DNA of 47,612 nt, taken from assembly GCA_023489435.1 (NCBI GenBank), contig JAMDCA010000024.1:1-47612 (forward strand), written 5' to 3'. The notes beneath the pieces are model-generated. The model was given only the letters and a program-made list of their open reading frames with translations. It had not been told where the DNA came from and searched no databases. Below, in pieces: positions 32,458 through 38,536 of the stretch; position 1 is the first letter of the stretch, and every line of letters starts with the position of its first letter. The position numbers and the translations under genes were made by a program. This DNA comes from Thermoplasmatota archaeon (lineage in GTDB: Archaea; Thermoplasmatota; Thermoplasmata; Thermoplasmatales; Thermoplasmataceae).

Positions 32458-35400
32458 ATGCATCTGGAATCTCTTGAATTGGATAACTTCAAATCGTTTG
32501 GAAACCGCAAGAAGATCATGTTCAAGAATGGCTTCACAGTGATCAGCGGCCCCAACGGAAGCGGTAAGAGCAACATAGGGGATTCTCTCCTTTTTGTCCT
32601 GGGAACTAGATCATCAAAGACCGTAAGAGCCGACAGGCTGGGCGATCTTGTCCACAAAGCCTCCAATGAGAAAAGGAACAGGAATTACTGCAGCGTTACC
32701 GTTACGCTTGACAAGGATGACAGTGATGCACCTGAAGACCAGAGGAAGATTGTGCTTAAAAGGGAGCTTGTGGCAGACACTGAAGGATACAAGTCAAATT
32801 ACTATTTAAACGGCGGAAGGGTCAGGCATACTGATGTCGCCAACCTCCTGGACTCGCTTCACATTTATCTGGACTCATACAGTTTTGTCCTCCAGGGGGA
32901 CATCAACAACATCGTGAAGATGACTGGATTCGAGCGGAGAAAACTCCTGGAGTCCATTTCAGGCATAGAAAGCTTTGATACCCAGATTGACAAGGCAAAG
33001 GTGGAAATTGATGCCATAATGGAAAACCTGTCCAGGCTTGAAGTTCTCACTGAAGAGACAAGGAAGAGAAGAGACCAGCTTGAGGTGGAAAAGAAAAGCG
33101 CTGAACGCTATCTGGAACTCGCAGACAGGCTGGCAAACCTGAGGAAGACCCTTCTCAACATGGAAATTGAAGGGCTAGGGCGTGAACAGAGATCGTACAC
33201 AGACAATCTGGATAAACTGGAGCTTGAAATCACTTCTATTAATGCCTCTATATCAGAATTGGAAGGTCAGCTTGAAAAGAGAAGGGCCAGAGAGGCAGAG
33301 CTCAAGCACAAGCTGGAAGTATCGGGGAACTCGCAACTCAATGAGATCAGGGAGCAGATCGACGGGAAGAGAGTCAGAATTGCAGAGCTGGGTGTAAGCA
33401 TTGAAAACGCCAAGGATCGTGCAGCAGAACTCAAGGAAGAGCTTGAAGAGAGTGTAGATACAATCAAGAAGTCAAAGAAGAAAATTGAATGGCTGGAATC
33501 CAACCGGAACGAAAACGGCCAGACCCTGGAAAAGATAAGGAAGGATATCCAGGAAAGGGCAAATGAGCTTCGTATTCTCAAGGATAAATCCAGCAAGAGC
33601 AATACGCAGATACTGGAAAGGCAGGAGAAAATCAGGGCAAAGGATCTGGAGATTAGGAACCTTGTTTCAGAAATATCTGCGCTTCAGGATTCAAAACAGG
33701 GCAAAACCTCTGAGAGATCACAGATTATTTCCCAGCTGGGGAGCATAGAGGAAAGAAAGAAAGATCTGGAATTCAACATAAGGGATGCGCTTTGGAGACT
33801 CAAGGACATTGAAAAGGAAGTTGGGGGAAATAAGAGAAGTTACGAGGACCTCAATGCAAGATATTACAAGCTGAAGAACAGGCTGGACGATCTGAGGAAA
33901 CGAAAAGACCAGATTCAGCAGGAACTGAACAGGATAGGGAGAGAGCATGCCCAGCTTCAGGCCACAACTTCCACAAAGTCAGGAATCCAGAACAGGGCAC
34001 TCACAACCGTGATGAATGCAAGGAACAGGAACAGCATAAGCGGAATCCACGGCACAATCAGAGAACTTATTAATTTTGACGACGAATTCAGGTCCGCTAT
34101 AGAAGCCTCTGCAGGTTCCAGGCTCAACTCTGTTGTGGTTGAGGATGATGGGGTTGCAGAAGAGTGCCTTAATCTCCTGAAAACAGAAAAATCGGGAAAG
34201 CTTACTTTTCTCCCAATCAACAAGGTACTTCCAGGCAGGCCAAGAGGAAAGGCAATTACCGTTCACCAGTCCGAAGGCTCAAGAGGCTATGTATTCGAGA
34301 AGGTATCATTTGATCAGAAGTACCAGGGAATAATCTGGTACGCATTCCAGGATACAGTCATAATCCAGGATGTTAAGACTGCAAGGAGGTATATGGTCGG
34401 GGTACGCCTCGTTACCATGGACGGCGATATTTTCGAGGCAAGCGGAGCAATAACCGGCGGGTACATGGACAAGACCCGGTCTGCTGCAGATATCGAACAG
34501 AAGATGGGGAAACTGTCCACAGAAATGAGGGAGCTTTCCCTTGAACTTGAAGGCCTTGATTCTGAGATAAACAGCATGGAGTCGGAATTTGAGACTGTAT
34601 CGCAGCAGCTCAGGGAAACTTCGAGAGACGAAGGCTCAAGGCAGACAGAGATCCAACAGTACAGGAAAATCTCCGAAGAAGGCAAAGGGCAGATTGACCA
34701 GTTCAATGCAAGCATAGAAAAACTTTCCCAGGGCCTTAAGATTTCAGAAGAGGGCATAAGGCACATTGAACACGATATCAAAGAACTGCAGGATAAGTCA
34801 GAAACCATTGACAGTGAAAAGACCAGGCTTTTCGAGGAAATAAGGGAACTATCGCCGAAATATGCTGAAAGGGAATCCGCACTTGAGGAAAGCCTTTCAG
34901 GATTGAGGGAGAAAGAGACAGAATTTTCCTCGGAACTGAGCAGGATTAATGCTGACATAAACAACATCAATGAGAGAATTCAGGAGCTGGAAGTAAAGAA
35001 CAGTGAAATGACTTCTGACATTTCAAAGCTTCAGGAACAGAAGAAATCCACAGAAATAGAAGTGAAGGTGGAGAATGAGGAACTTTCAAAACTAAGGGCA
35101 GTGGAAGCAGAAATATCAGAAAAATCCAGAGAGATTGTGGAAGCGCTCAACAGCAATGAAACCGAGATGAGAAAGACAGAGGAGCGCATAGAGATCAACA
35201 ATTCAAATATCTCTGCTAAAAGGGAAATTATACTCTCGCTGCAGATCAAGATAGAAAATATAGAATCCAAGATTGTGGAAGTGAAGCTGGAGATGGAGAC
35301 TGTTGGGGGCAGAGTCCTGGAAGACAGAAAGTCCACTCCCGAAATCAAGAGGGAAATTGAAGGATGCAACATTTCAATTGCAGAGCTTGGTCCAGTAAAC

Positions 35401-36000
35401 CAGAGAGCCATTGAGGATTACGGAATTGTATCAAAGGACCTGGAGGCCCTTGTATCTGAAGTTGGGAACATGAATTCTGAGAAGGCGGATCTGGAAGCCC
35501 TCACAGCCAAATTGAACGAACAGAAAACACGGGCATTCATGGAAATGTACCACGCCATCAACGATAACATGAAGATCATTTACAGGGAAATTTCAGGGGG
35601 CGGAGAAGCACTCCTTGAGATGTCTGATGAAAGCGATCCCCTAAATTCGGAAGTGCACATCAGGGCGAGGCCCAAGGGAACAAACTTCTCAAAGATCGAA
35701 GCATTGAGCGGTGGGGAAAAGAGCCTCACAGCACTTTCATTCATACTGGCAGTGCAGAGAATTAACCCGTCACCAATTTATTACCTTGACGAGGTGGATA
35801 TGTTCCTTGACGGAGCCAATGCCGAAAGAGTGGGCAAGATGTTCAGGTCAAACTCCAACACGTCCCAGGTGTTTGCCGTTTCTCTGAGGAAAGCCATGCT
35901 CAAGTATGCGGACAATGTCATTGGTGTAACGAGCTTTGACCAGGAGAACACGGAGGTTTTTGAGAAGTATGTGGGCAGTGACCAGGAGGCATTAACGTGA
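32458..36000 (+). CDS. smc: Chromosome segregation ATPase SMC
   Basis: GPNGSGKSNIGDSLLFVLG, long coiled coils, hinge, ALSGGEKSLTALSFILA, YYLDEVDMFLD. Confidence 0.98.
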   Translation: MHLESLELDNFKSFGNRKKIMFKNGFTVISGPNGSGKSNIGDSLLFVLGTRSSKTVRADRLGDLVHKASNEKRNRNYCSVTVTLDKDDSDAPEDQRKIVLKRELVADTEGYKSNYYLNGGRVRHTDVANLLDSLHIYLDSYSFVLQGDINNIVKMTGFERRKLLESISGIESFDTQIDKAKVEIDAIMENLSRLEVLTEETRKRRDQLEVEKKSAERYLELADRLANLRKTLLNMEIEGLGREQRSYTDNLDKLELEITSINASISELEGQLEKRRAREAELKHKLEVSGNSQLNEIREQIDGKRVRIAELGVSIENAKDRAAELKEELEESVDTIKKSKKKIEWLESNRNENGQTLEKIRKDIQERANELRILKDKSSKSNTQILERQEKIRAKDLEIRNLVSEISALQDSKQGKTSERSQIISQLGSIEERKKDLEFNIRDALWRLKDIEKEVGGNKRSYEDLNARYYKLKNRLDDLRKRKDQIQQELNRIGREHAQLQATTSTKSGIQNRALTTVMNARNRNSISGIHGTIRELINFDDEFRSAIEASAGSRLNSVVVEDDGVAEECLNLLKTEKSGKLTFLPINKVLPGRPRGKAITVHQSEGSRGYVFEKVSFDQKYQGIIWYAFQDTVIIQDVKTARRYMVGVRLVTMDGDIFEASGAITGGYMDKTRSAADIEQKMGKLSTEMRELSLELEGLDSEINSMESEFETVSQQLRETSRDEGSRQTEIQQYRKISEEGKGQIDQFNASIEKLSQGLKISEEGIRHIEHDIKELQDKSETIDSEKTRLFEEIRELSPKYAERESALEESLSGLREKETEFSSELSRINADINNINERIQELEVKNSEMTSDISKLQEQKKSTEIEVKVENEELSKLRAVEAEISEKSREIVEALNSNETEMRKTEERIEINNSNISAKREIILSLQIKIENIESKIVEVKLEMETVGGRVLEDRKSTPEIKREIEGCNISIAELGPVNQRAIEDYGIVSKDLEALVSEVGNMNSEKADLEALTAKLNEQKTRAFMEMYHAINDNMKIIYREISGGGEALLEMSDESDPLNSEVHIRARPKGTNFSKIEALSGGEKSLTALSFILAVQRINPSPIYYLDEVDMFLDGANAERVGKMFRSNSNTSQVFAVSLRKAMLKYADNVIGVTSFDQENTEVFEKYVGSDQEALT

Positions 36001-36770
36001 ATCAGGCTGAGGTAATGCAGAGCCTTGTCGTGCAGGGGACACTTCTCGAGAGTGACACCAAGTACTATGTTGAACTCCTGAATCACGACGTATCGGCTGT
36101 TGAATACAAGGACCCTGTGGAAAGGACGGTAGCATCGGTATTCAAGATGTGCCTTGATGGATCCATTGATCCATGGGACATTGACCTCAAAGCCTTTGTA
36201 AAAGTCTTCTCAGAAATAGTGGATGAGAACTTCAGGGACTTTGGCGCGGCTGGTTACCTCATATACCAGGCGTGGAAGATCCTCAATGTGAAAACCGTAA
36301 ATTCCCTGCAAAAGAGGCTTGTATTTGAAAATGGGGAAGAGAACGGGGAATATCCTGATGAAATTGAACAATTCTTCGAACCCCTTGAACTTTCAGTGAG
36401 GGAGCCTGTGAAGCATCAGGAGAAACGCAAGGTTTTCCTGGTTGAGTTGCTGGACGCAATGCGTGACGCTTACCGTGTAACACCGCATCATGGGCAGAAG
36501 AAGGAAATTCTCAGGGTTGAGCACACTGAAACAACCATTGAGGAGATCGTTTCAGGCATGCACGCGGAGGAGCCTGAGGAGGAGATCAACAGTGTCTACC
36601 AGACTCTTCTTCAGCATGGAATAGACGGTTTCATGGAAGAGTTATGGAACCTTTCCGAACTTAGCAGGGGGTCATTCTTCGTTTACTGCATGTTCCTCAT
36701 GAGAGAGAAGAAAATCCGCCTTTCTCAGGAAGTTCCATATGGGGTAATACGCATTGAAAAGCCGGAATAA
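35997..36770 (+). CDS. scpA: Segregation and condensation protein A (kleisin)
   Basis: ATGA-type overlap with smc; IDPWDIDLKAFVKVF, GYLIYQAWKIL. Confidence 0.88.
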   Translation: MNQAEVMQSLVVQGTLLESDTKYYVELLNHDVSAVEYKDPVERTVASVFKMCLDGSIDPWDIDLKAFVKVFSEIVDENFRDFGAAGYLIYQAWKILNVKTVNSLQKRLVFENGEENGEYPDEIEQFFEPLELSVREPVKHQEKRKVFLVELLDAMRDAYRVTPHHGQKKEILRVEHTETTIEEIVSGMHAEEPEEEINSVYQTLLQHGIDGFMEELWNLSELSRGSFFVYCMFLMREKKIRLSQEVPYGVIRIEKPE

Positions 36771-37014
36771 TCCTGCTGCTGATCAGGAATTCATCAGCGC
36801 TTCTGAAATCTCAAAGTACGTTTTCTGCAATGTTTCGTGGTACCTTGATAAAGAGGGGGCCCCAAGGAATCCCGGTTCGGGGATCAGGATGCAGAGGGGA
36901 GTCCAGTCACACTCATCACTGAAGAAAAGGCACAGGATAACTCAAATTGCAACATATGCAGTCATTCTGGTTGCACTTGTGATTTCCGGATATATTTTCA
37001 TCTCACTTTACTGA
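36754..37014 (+). CDS. N-terminal part of a split membrane-anchored Cas4-like nuclease
   Basis: ISASEISKYVFCNVSWYLD (Cas4 N-terminal Cys) and RGVQSH (GxxxH motif), then KKRHR and a TM helix. Confidence 0.65.
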   Translation: MKSRNNPAADQEFISASEISKYVFCNVSWYLDKEGAPRNPGSGIRMQRGVQSHSSLKKRHRITQIATYAVILVALVISGYIFISLY

Positions 37015-37015
37015 T

Positions 37016-37537
37016 ATGTCTTCCTTCTGGCTTATTCTGCTCCTTCTGATTCTTCTGGTGCTTCTTTTTGCAGGTGGAAAGCTAAGGAAAAAGGAAAAAA
37101 GCTATGCCATACCAAAAGGCAAGGAAGTGTACGAGGATCTCGAGACAAAGGGCAAGATATTGCGCTCATACAGGTATGGACTTTCGGGAAAACCTGACAT
37201 GATCAAAAGGAAGGGCAACTTGCTCATTCCATATGAATACAAGACCACCGATGCCAAAGTTCCTAGGGACGGACACATCTACCAGATGGTTGCTTATTTC
37301 ATCATTCTCGCCGATCTTTACCCTCACCTAGATATCCCTTACGGGGTGCTAAAATACAAGAACCAGGCATTCAGGATAGACAATCTTCCGGAGAACAGGA
37401 ACCGGGTCCTCAGAATAATGGATGAGATGCGGATGACCCACATGGAACCTGCAAGGATCCACAATAATTCCGGCAGGTGCTTCAAGTGTTCATATAATGG
37501 TATTTGCCAGCAAAAATTAATTAGTTCCAAACAATAG
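37016..37537 (+). CDS. C-terminal part of a split membrane-anchored Cas4-like nuclease (RecB-like)
   Basis: N-terminal TM, then GLSGKPDMI, LIPYEYKT, HIYQMVAYFIIL and CFKCSYNGIC (PD-(D/E)XK motifs plus three Cys). Confidence 0.75.
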   Translation: MSSFWLILLLLILLVLLFAGGKLRKKEKSYAIPKGKEVYEDLETKGKILRSYRYGLSGKPDMIKRKGNLLIPYEYKTTDAKVPRDGHIYQMVAYFIILADLYPHLDIPYGVLKYKNQAFRIDNLPENRNRVLRIMDEMRMTHMEPARIHNNSGRCFKCSYNGICQQKLISSKQ

Positions 37538-37549
37538 TCGAACCTCTAT

Positions 37550-38536
37550 ATGCCGCTACTGGAAGCCCTTTCAAGAAACATGGAGGAAGTTATCACCCAT
37601 GAGGAAATCAAAGCTCTCAAGAACACTGGTGCAAAGGCATATTTTGGCATAGAGCCATCTGGACTGCCCCATATTGCAACTGGTTTCCTCTGGGCAAAGA
37701 AGATGACGGAAGTCTACAACCAGGGTATTGAAACAATTATATTTCTCGCAGACTGGCACGCCATGATAAATGACAAGCTTGACGGGGACCTCGAAAAGAT
37801 AAGGCAGAGCGGGGAAACCATATTGAAAACCATGAAAGCATTCGGCCTTCCGGATGGAGTAAAGTTTGTGTGGGCAAAGGATCTTGTTGCAAATTCTGAT
37901 TACTGGAAACTGCTTCTGCAGGTGGCAAAGAACTCAAACCTTTCAAGGGTCACCAGGGCACTCCCAATTATGGGGAGAAGCGAGGAGGACGCGGAGAAGG
38001 ATTTCAGCAAATTCATTTACCCTCTTATGCAGGTAACTGACATATTCTACATGGATCTGGATATCGCCTTTGGTGGCATGGATCAAAGGCATGCTCACAT
38101 GCTTGCCAGAGACATTGCCGAAAAGATGGGCAAGAAGAAAGTCATATCGATTCACGGTCCCCTGCTGGGCAGCCTCAAAGGGTCCGGCAGGATGGACACT
38201 TTCAAGAAGATGTCCAAGAGTGATCCGGATTCGGCTATATTCATATCAGACTCAAGAGAAGAGGTCAACCGCAAGCTAAAAGGTGCCTTCTGTCCCACAG
38301 GGCAGGTTGATGGAAACCCTGTCATGGATTTGTTCAAGCATGTGGTTTTTCCTTACATAGGGCACGAGATAACCATACACCGGCCTCCAAGCAAGGGCGG
38401 GGAGCTTCAGGTAAACACTTTCGATGAACTGAAGACGCGATTTCTCAAAAATGAGATCCATCCAATGGATCTAAAAACAGCGGCAGCCGACTCTTTGAAC
38501 GAAATGATTGAACCTGGAAGAGCAGTTTTCAGGTGA
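37550..38536 (+). CDS. tyrS: Tyrosyl-tRNA synthetase
   Basis: YFGIEPSGLPHIATG (HIGH-like), GGMDQRHAHMLARD, KMSKS. Confidence 0.9.
   Translation: MPLLEALSRNMEEVITHEEIKALKNTGAKAYFGIEPSGLPHIATGFLWAKKMTEVYNQGIETIIFLADWHAMINDKLDGDLEKIRQSGETILKTMKAFGLPDGVKFVWAKDLVANSDYWKLLLQVAKNSNLSRVTRALPIMGRSEEDAEKDFSKFIYPLMQVTDIFYMDLDIAFGGMDQRHAHMLARDIAEKMGKKKVISIHGPLLGSLKGSGRMDTFKKMSKSDPDSAIFISDSREEVNRKLKGAFCPTGQVDGNPVMDLFKHVVFPYIGHEITIHRPPSKGGELQVNTFDELKTRFLKNEIHPMDLKTAAADSLNEMIEPGRAVFR

Follow-up and report, generated by a model that had tools for sequence, protein, structure and literature searches.

Cas4 proteins outside CRISPR systems are common in archaea, and an Fe-S staple occurs in AddB and Dna2. Cas4 enzymes cut single-stranded DNA, and motif II, motif III and the QhxxY motif are needed for this activity (PMC3466216, PMC4176176); mutants in the RecB and QhxxY motifs lose activity (PMC4176176). 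Proteins of the Cas4 family (DUF83) are soluble and consist of one chain of about 170-220 aa, whereas the locus described here carries the parts of a putative Cas4-like nuclease on two open reading frames with one transmembrane (TM) helix each. Literature searches found no description of a split or TM-bearing Cas4, and the main text of a phylogenomic Cas4 survey mentions no transmembrane, split or smc-linked forms (PMC5704561).

The window, a stretch of 47,612 nucleotides from a Thermoplasmatota archaeon, carries both frames on the forward strand. ORF1 (36754..37014) starts with TTG at 36754, stops with TGA at 37012-37014 and encodes 86 aa; ORF2 (37016..37537) starts with ATG at 37016, lies in frame +1 relative to ORF1 and encodes 173 aa. 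At the junction TGATATG (37012..37018) a single base separates the ORF1 stop from the ORF2 start. The N-terminal half on ORF1 presents the first Fe-S ligand, Cys25 (codon 36826..36828), the histidine of motif I (GxxxH), His53 (36910..36912), both placed by the relatives' alignment A1, and a C-terminal TM helix at approximately 36937..37011. The C-terminal half on ORF2 begins with a TM helix at approximately 37025..37078, followed, in alignment A2, by the stretch 37196..37243 with Asp61 of motif II (GKPD, 37196-37198) and Glu74 and Lys76 of motif III (EYK, 37235-37243), by the QhxxY motif from Gln90 to Tyr94 (QMxxY, 37283..37297) and by a CxxCx5C motif with Cys155, Cys158 and Cys164 as Fe-S ligands 2-4 (37478..37507). 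All RecB motifs of Cas4, I (His), II (Asp) and III (Glu-x-Lys), and QhxxY were thus present, spread over two ORFs. The sequence-only reading had the coordinates and reading of both ORFs right; it had assigned the catalytic core to ORF2, which held for motifs II and III and QMxxY, but had overlooked the motif I histidine (GVQSH) on ORF1. Therefore, the active site, and not the Fe-S site alone, is divided.

Domain searches assigned ORF2 to Pfam Cas_Cas4 (PF01930; 3.3e-9, score 37.5 against a cut-off of 22.7) and to NCBIfam TIGR00372 (Cas4; 67 bits, cut-off 65), with a further match to PDDEXK_1. ORF1 alone, owing to its small size, reached no significance in Pfam and gave weak matches to PDDEXK_1 (0.028), TIGR00372 (0.094) and the PADLOC Cas4 model (9e-5); it matches the start of the Cas4 models. 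The conserved columns among its relatives were the Fe-S cysteine, a tryptophan and GxxxH, and a profile of fused homologues placed the ORF1 stretch on the first cysteine and the GxxxH motif of the Cas4 structure 8d3l, a match that is weak for ORF1 alone. A helicase-like domain of the AddB type was absent from both ORFs. A second, weak PF01930 match in the genome of the window (L002, G000:C8:55872-56030) stayed under the cut-off.

Both hydrophobic segments were conserved over the family, in agreement with the earlier claim that a Cas4-like nuclease is divided inside a TM hairpin. The mean 19-residue Kyte-Doolittle values were 2.9 for TM1 and 3.0 for TM2. Among 27 relatives used for hydropathy and charge, a net positive charge preceded TM1 in 25 and followed TM2 in all 27, and the tails on the opposite side of the membrane comprise about 1-3 residues. 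Both soluble parts should hence be cytosolic, as had been predicted from the flanking charges. For structure prediction a natural member with in-frame halves separated by one TGA (L018) was modelled as a single chain; the TGA was translated as Trp, and the 54-row alignment used (A5) had its N fragments trimmed before the TM helix. The model (pLDDT 91, pTM 0.85) contained helices at residues 33-81 and 87-114, corresponding to TM1 and TM2. Its best PDB match was Cas4 of a type I-C complex (8d3l_I, E 3.5e-7), with 275 alignment columns, an rmsd of 7.6 and a TM-score of 0.67 on the target; further matches were other Cas4 proteins (SSO0001, Pcal_0546) and AdnA, MGME1, Dna2 and ACE1 structures. As a single-chain model it supports a two-chain assembly without proving it.

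On this basis ORF1 and ORF2 probably are two subunits of one putative membrane-anchored Cas4-like PD-(D/E)XK Fe-S nuclease. Each chain has one TM helix and a soluble part predicted to be cytosolic; ORF1 supplies the first cluster cysteine and the motif I histidine, ORF2 the aspartate, glutamate, lysine, glutamine and the other three cysteines. The chains would probably be made by coupled translation and may meet as a TM hairpin, whereby one active site and one cluster are completed at the membrane. The product would be an exonuclease for single-stranded DNA that depends on metal and, close to the membrane, trims DNA ends or degrades them.

The C-terminal half was present in 51 of 77 genomes and 13 of 19 genera of the window's family (f1), a count that includes a few weak matches in longer reading frames, which are other Cas4-type genes. 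Named carriers were MAGs and assemblies of Thermoplasmata, including E-plasma and a Cuniculiplasma MAG. After removal of duplicates, 50 pairs with both halves remained in the order, 47 in the window's family and three in families f3/f4. The pair was not found in genus g18, nor in the genomes taken as Thermoplasma (G028 and G091, by our assumption) and Ferroplasma; thus it is dispensable. Two further genomes, G017 and G040, are presumably Cuniculiplasma divulgatum S5 and Aciduliprofundum boonei; with this assignment, a cultivated organism (Cuniculiplasma) appears to carry the pair. Where computable, dN/dS was 0.03-0.16 for ORF1 and 0.03-0.09 for ORF2, values that show strong purifying selection on each half.

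Upstream of the pair lie smc (32458..36000, forward strand; TIGR02169, 897 bits), with synteny in the named loci that reach far enough upstream, and a gene for an scpA-like kleisin (35997..36770, forward strand). The kleisin assignment is weak (SMC_ScpA 0.064) but supported by synteny and by a homologue (SMC_ScpA 1.9e-4, Rad21_Rec8 0.016). The 3' end of scpA at 36770 overlaps the 5' end of ORF1, as noted before, by 17 nt. Downstream follows trpS (37550..38536, forward strand; tRNA-synt_1b 7e-48). The order smc-scpA-N-C-trpS was conserved in 34/34 named loci of the family where the contig extends far enough; neighbours within the family were smc, scpA, trpS, fen1 and radB, none of them cas1 or cas2. 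The constant position and the overlap with scpA would suit a nuclease that is tethered to the membrane and acts as a partner of SMC-ScpA when chromosomes are segregated or repaired. We regard such a partnership as unlikely, since genomes without the pair retain smc-scpA at other locations and since the smc-scpA neighbourhood was seen beside neither the pairs of f3/f4 and f48 nor the fused homologues, all of which have other neighbours. A subunit of SMC-ScpA condensin would be expected next to smc-scpA wherever its gene occurs; here the linkage is confined to one family and may reflect inherited gene order instead of function. The condensin link proposed by the sequence-only reading is thereby weakened. 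In four members of the family for which no pair was found (L123, L124, L127, L128), smc and scpA lie together, inverted relative to trpS; absence of the pair accompanies the rearrangement in these loci.

All four cysteines were present in 50/50 pairs, one on the first and three on the second chain, as claimed from the single locus. The complete set, Cys and His on ORF1 and Asp, Glu, Lys, Gln, Tyr and three Cys on ORF2, was found in 45 of the 50. The five exceptions form two separate lineages in the tree, G036 (L026) and the clade of L143, L144, L147 and L148. All five lost Glu and Lys of motif III and retained every cysteine and the TM helices; in motif I four lost the histidine, while L143 keeps the histidine and lost its glycine. 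These five are apparently inactive versions. The loss of motif III together with loss or decay of motif I, although it rests on two events, would fit a shared active site and a later loss of catalysis and is suggestive; as a counter-example, the second copy in genome G138 (L203) lost the motif I histidine and keeps Glu and Lys. The same two lineages could indicate a structural or scaffold protein, for which the Fe-S fold and the membrane anchor matter and catalysis does not, the more so as cysteine mutants of Pcal_0546 showed that cluster and catalysis are separable (PMC4176176). Against the 45 complete pairs and the equally complete active sites of the f48 pairs, a purely structural or scaffold role seems quite doubtful.

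In the window's family 47/47 pairs were split and none was fused, and in the whole order the halves were separate ORFs in 50/50 pairs. The start of ORF2 lies between -7 and +4 nt from the ORF1 stop in 46 of the 47 pairs of the family. This constant junction, the few ORF2 copies without an ATG, GTG or TTG start, and the well-folded read-through model of L018 could speak for joined translation, in which stop read-through or a programmed frameshift yields one working chain. However, the relative frame varied among the 50 pairs (-1 in 24, +1 in 22, in frame with one stop between in 4), so that no one mechanism would suffice and -1 shifts, +1 shifts and read-through would each have to occur. Inspection by eye of the f48 junctions revealed no common slippery sequence; an SD-like GGTGAT was found there, with AUA, TTG or ATG overlapping the stop. 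Joined translation is therefore very unlikely. As to the start codons themselves, ORF2 of three loci in genus g3 (L016, L017, L065) apparently starts with a CTG that overlaps the ORF1 stop (CTGA), and the junction contains neither ATG nor GTG nor TTG. In f48 (L171-L186, L191) ORF2 often lacks these three codons at the junction, and AUA overlaps the ORF1 stop; the SD-like motif (GAGGTGAT or GGGGTGAT) precedes the AUA, with ATG or TTG in the other loci. This suggests a conserved AUA start for the f48 ORF2.

The score of ORF2 above the NCBIfam Cas4 cut-off might point to a Cas4 that serves CRISPR adaptation in trans. We consider this highly improbable: of 18 near-complete genomes with the pair, 8 yielded no cas1, nor did the genome of the window (82% complete), thus CRISPR is not required, and Cuniculiplasma S5 possesses its own Cas4 and Cas1 (PMC5155288). 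A sequencing error or a decaying pseudogene, an idea fed by the predominance of MAGs, has a negligible probability in view of about 78 independent conserved pairs, single-contig genomes included, in three frames and with low dN/dS; these pairs rule out the frameshift error that the sequence-only reading had considered, and, judged from the sequences, the two-gene architecture is genuine.

A viral or mobile origin was likewise considered and rejected, as no relatives were found in the viral contigs searched. The conserved position, the strong selection and the lack of viral relatives suggest that the two-subunit nuclease has a cellular role and processes DNA at the membrane. The enzyme would act independently of CRISPR and was probably inherited vertically.

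A single-ORF homologue with a membrane insertion is widespread across the class and the phylum. These fused proteins have 2-8 hydrophobic segments at the same insertion point; with some dependence on the threshold, the insert has four hydrophobic helices in most, two in two, eight in one and three in two proteins. Even numbers would leave both nuclease parts on one side of the membrane. The eight or so segments belong to L190 (G440), a fused homologue about 506 aa long, in which they lie between the first Cys and GxPD. The structure model of a fused protein was less certain (pLDDT 82, pTM 0.68) and matched Cas4 mainly over the nuclease core. The gene neighbours of the fused form, GlmS/GlmU-type, TPD-domain and other genes, differed between lineages, with none in common, and a shared neighbourhood was therefore rejected. 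At L136:5771-9733, presumably from Aciduliprofundum boonei, the fused gene lies upstream of genes for a metallo-beta-lactamase-fold protein, a DUF3198 protein and a PLD protein with a lamin tail domain.

The same split recurred, in other gene contexts, with 18 pairs in f48, which belongs to another class of the phylum, and with 10 pairs in f15, of the same class. Genome G138 contains two split-pair copies (L199, L203), the latter being the one without the motif I histidine. In an unrooted tree, limited by few columns and long branches, a supported branch set f1/f3/f4 together with f48 on one side, whereas f15 was located among the fused proteins. One old fission common to f1/f3/f4 and f48 and a further one in f15 are likely. 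The ancestor would have been a single-chain Cas4-like protein in which the membrane hairpin already lay between motifs I and II.

The split, present in many acidophilic archaea and maintained over long evolutionary times, is a real, conserved variant of a Cas4-like nuclease, for which the proposed mechanism is likely. A large set of Cas4-like proteins is linked to the membrane, and in several lineages the division runs through the active site itself. More tentatively, these proteins may represent a phylum-wide class of membrane-embedded Cas4-like nucleases in Thermoplasmatota, with a membrane hairpin between motif I and motifs II-III; fission into two genes would have happened more than once in this class, and the two chains would be active only when they meet in the membrane. 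If so, membrane-dependent assembly would act as a switch for a DNA nuclease. The split offers a clean genetic test, as each half alone should be dead, and the anchoring directs the search for a function to the membrane. Automatic annotation would label ORF2 'Cas4' and may overlook the other half.

Among known systems, the pair shares with Cas4 (DUF83, PF01930; TIGR00372), in particular the solo-Cas4 group, RecB motifs I-III, QhxxY, one N-terminal and three C-terminal cysteines and the modelled fold; it differs in the membrane hairpin between motifs I and II and in the lack of cas neighbours. The nuclease domains of AddB, AdnA, Dna2 and MGME1 have the same PD-(D/E)XK fold, and AdnA, Dna2 and MGME1 were among the model matches; however, the pair has no helicase domain, and the AddB group are neither membrane proteins nor split. 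The Argonaute-associated Cas4 family (ACE1; 9iab, 9iac), also a model match, represents a Cas4-like fold outside CRISPR; it is Argonaute-associated by name, with no TM insertion or split indicated. No description of the single-chain TM-inserted Cas4-like proteins of Thermoplasmatota was found in the papers searched. These proteins (e.g. L136) are the nearest relatives of the pair: they have the same motifs and the same insertion point, but consist of one ORF, mostly with four TM helices, and have other neighbours.
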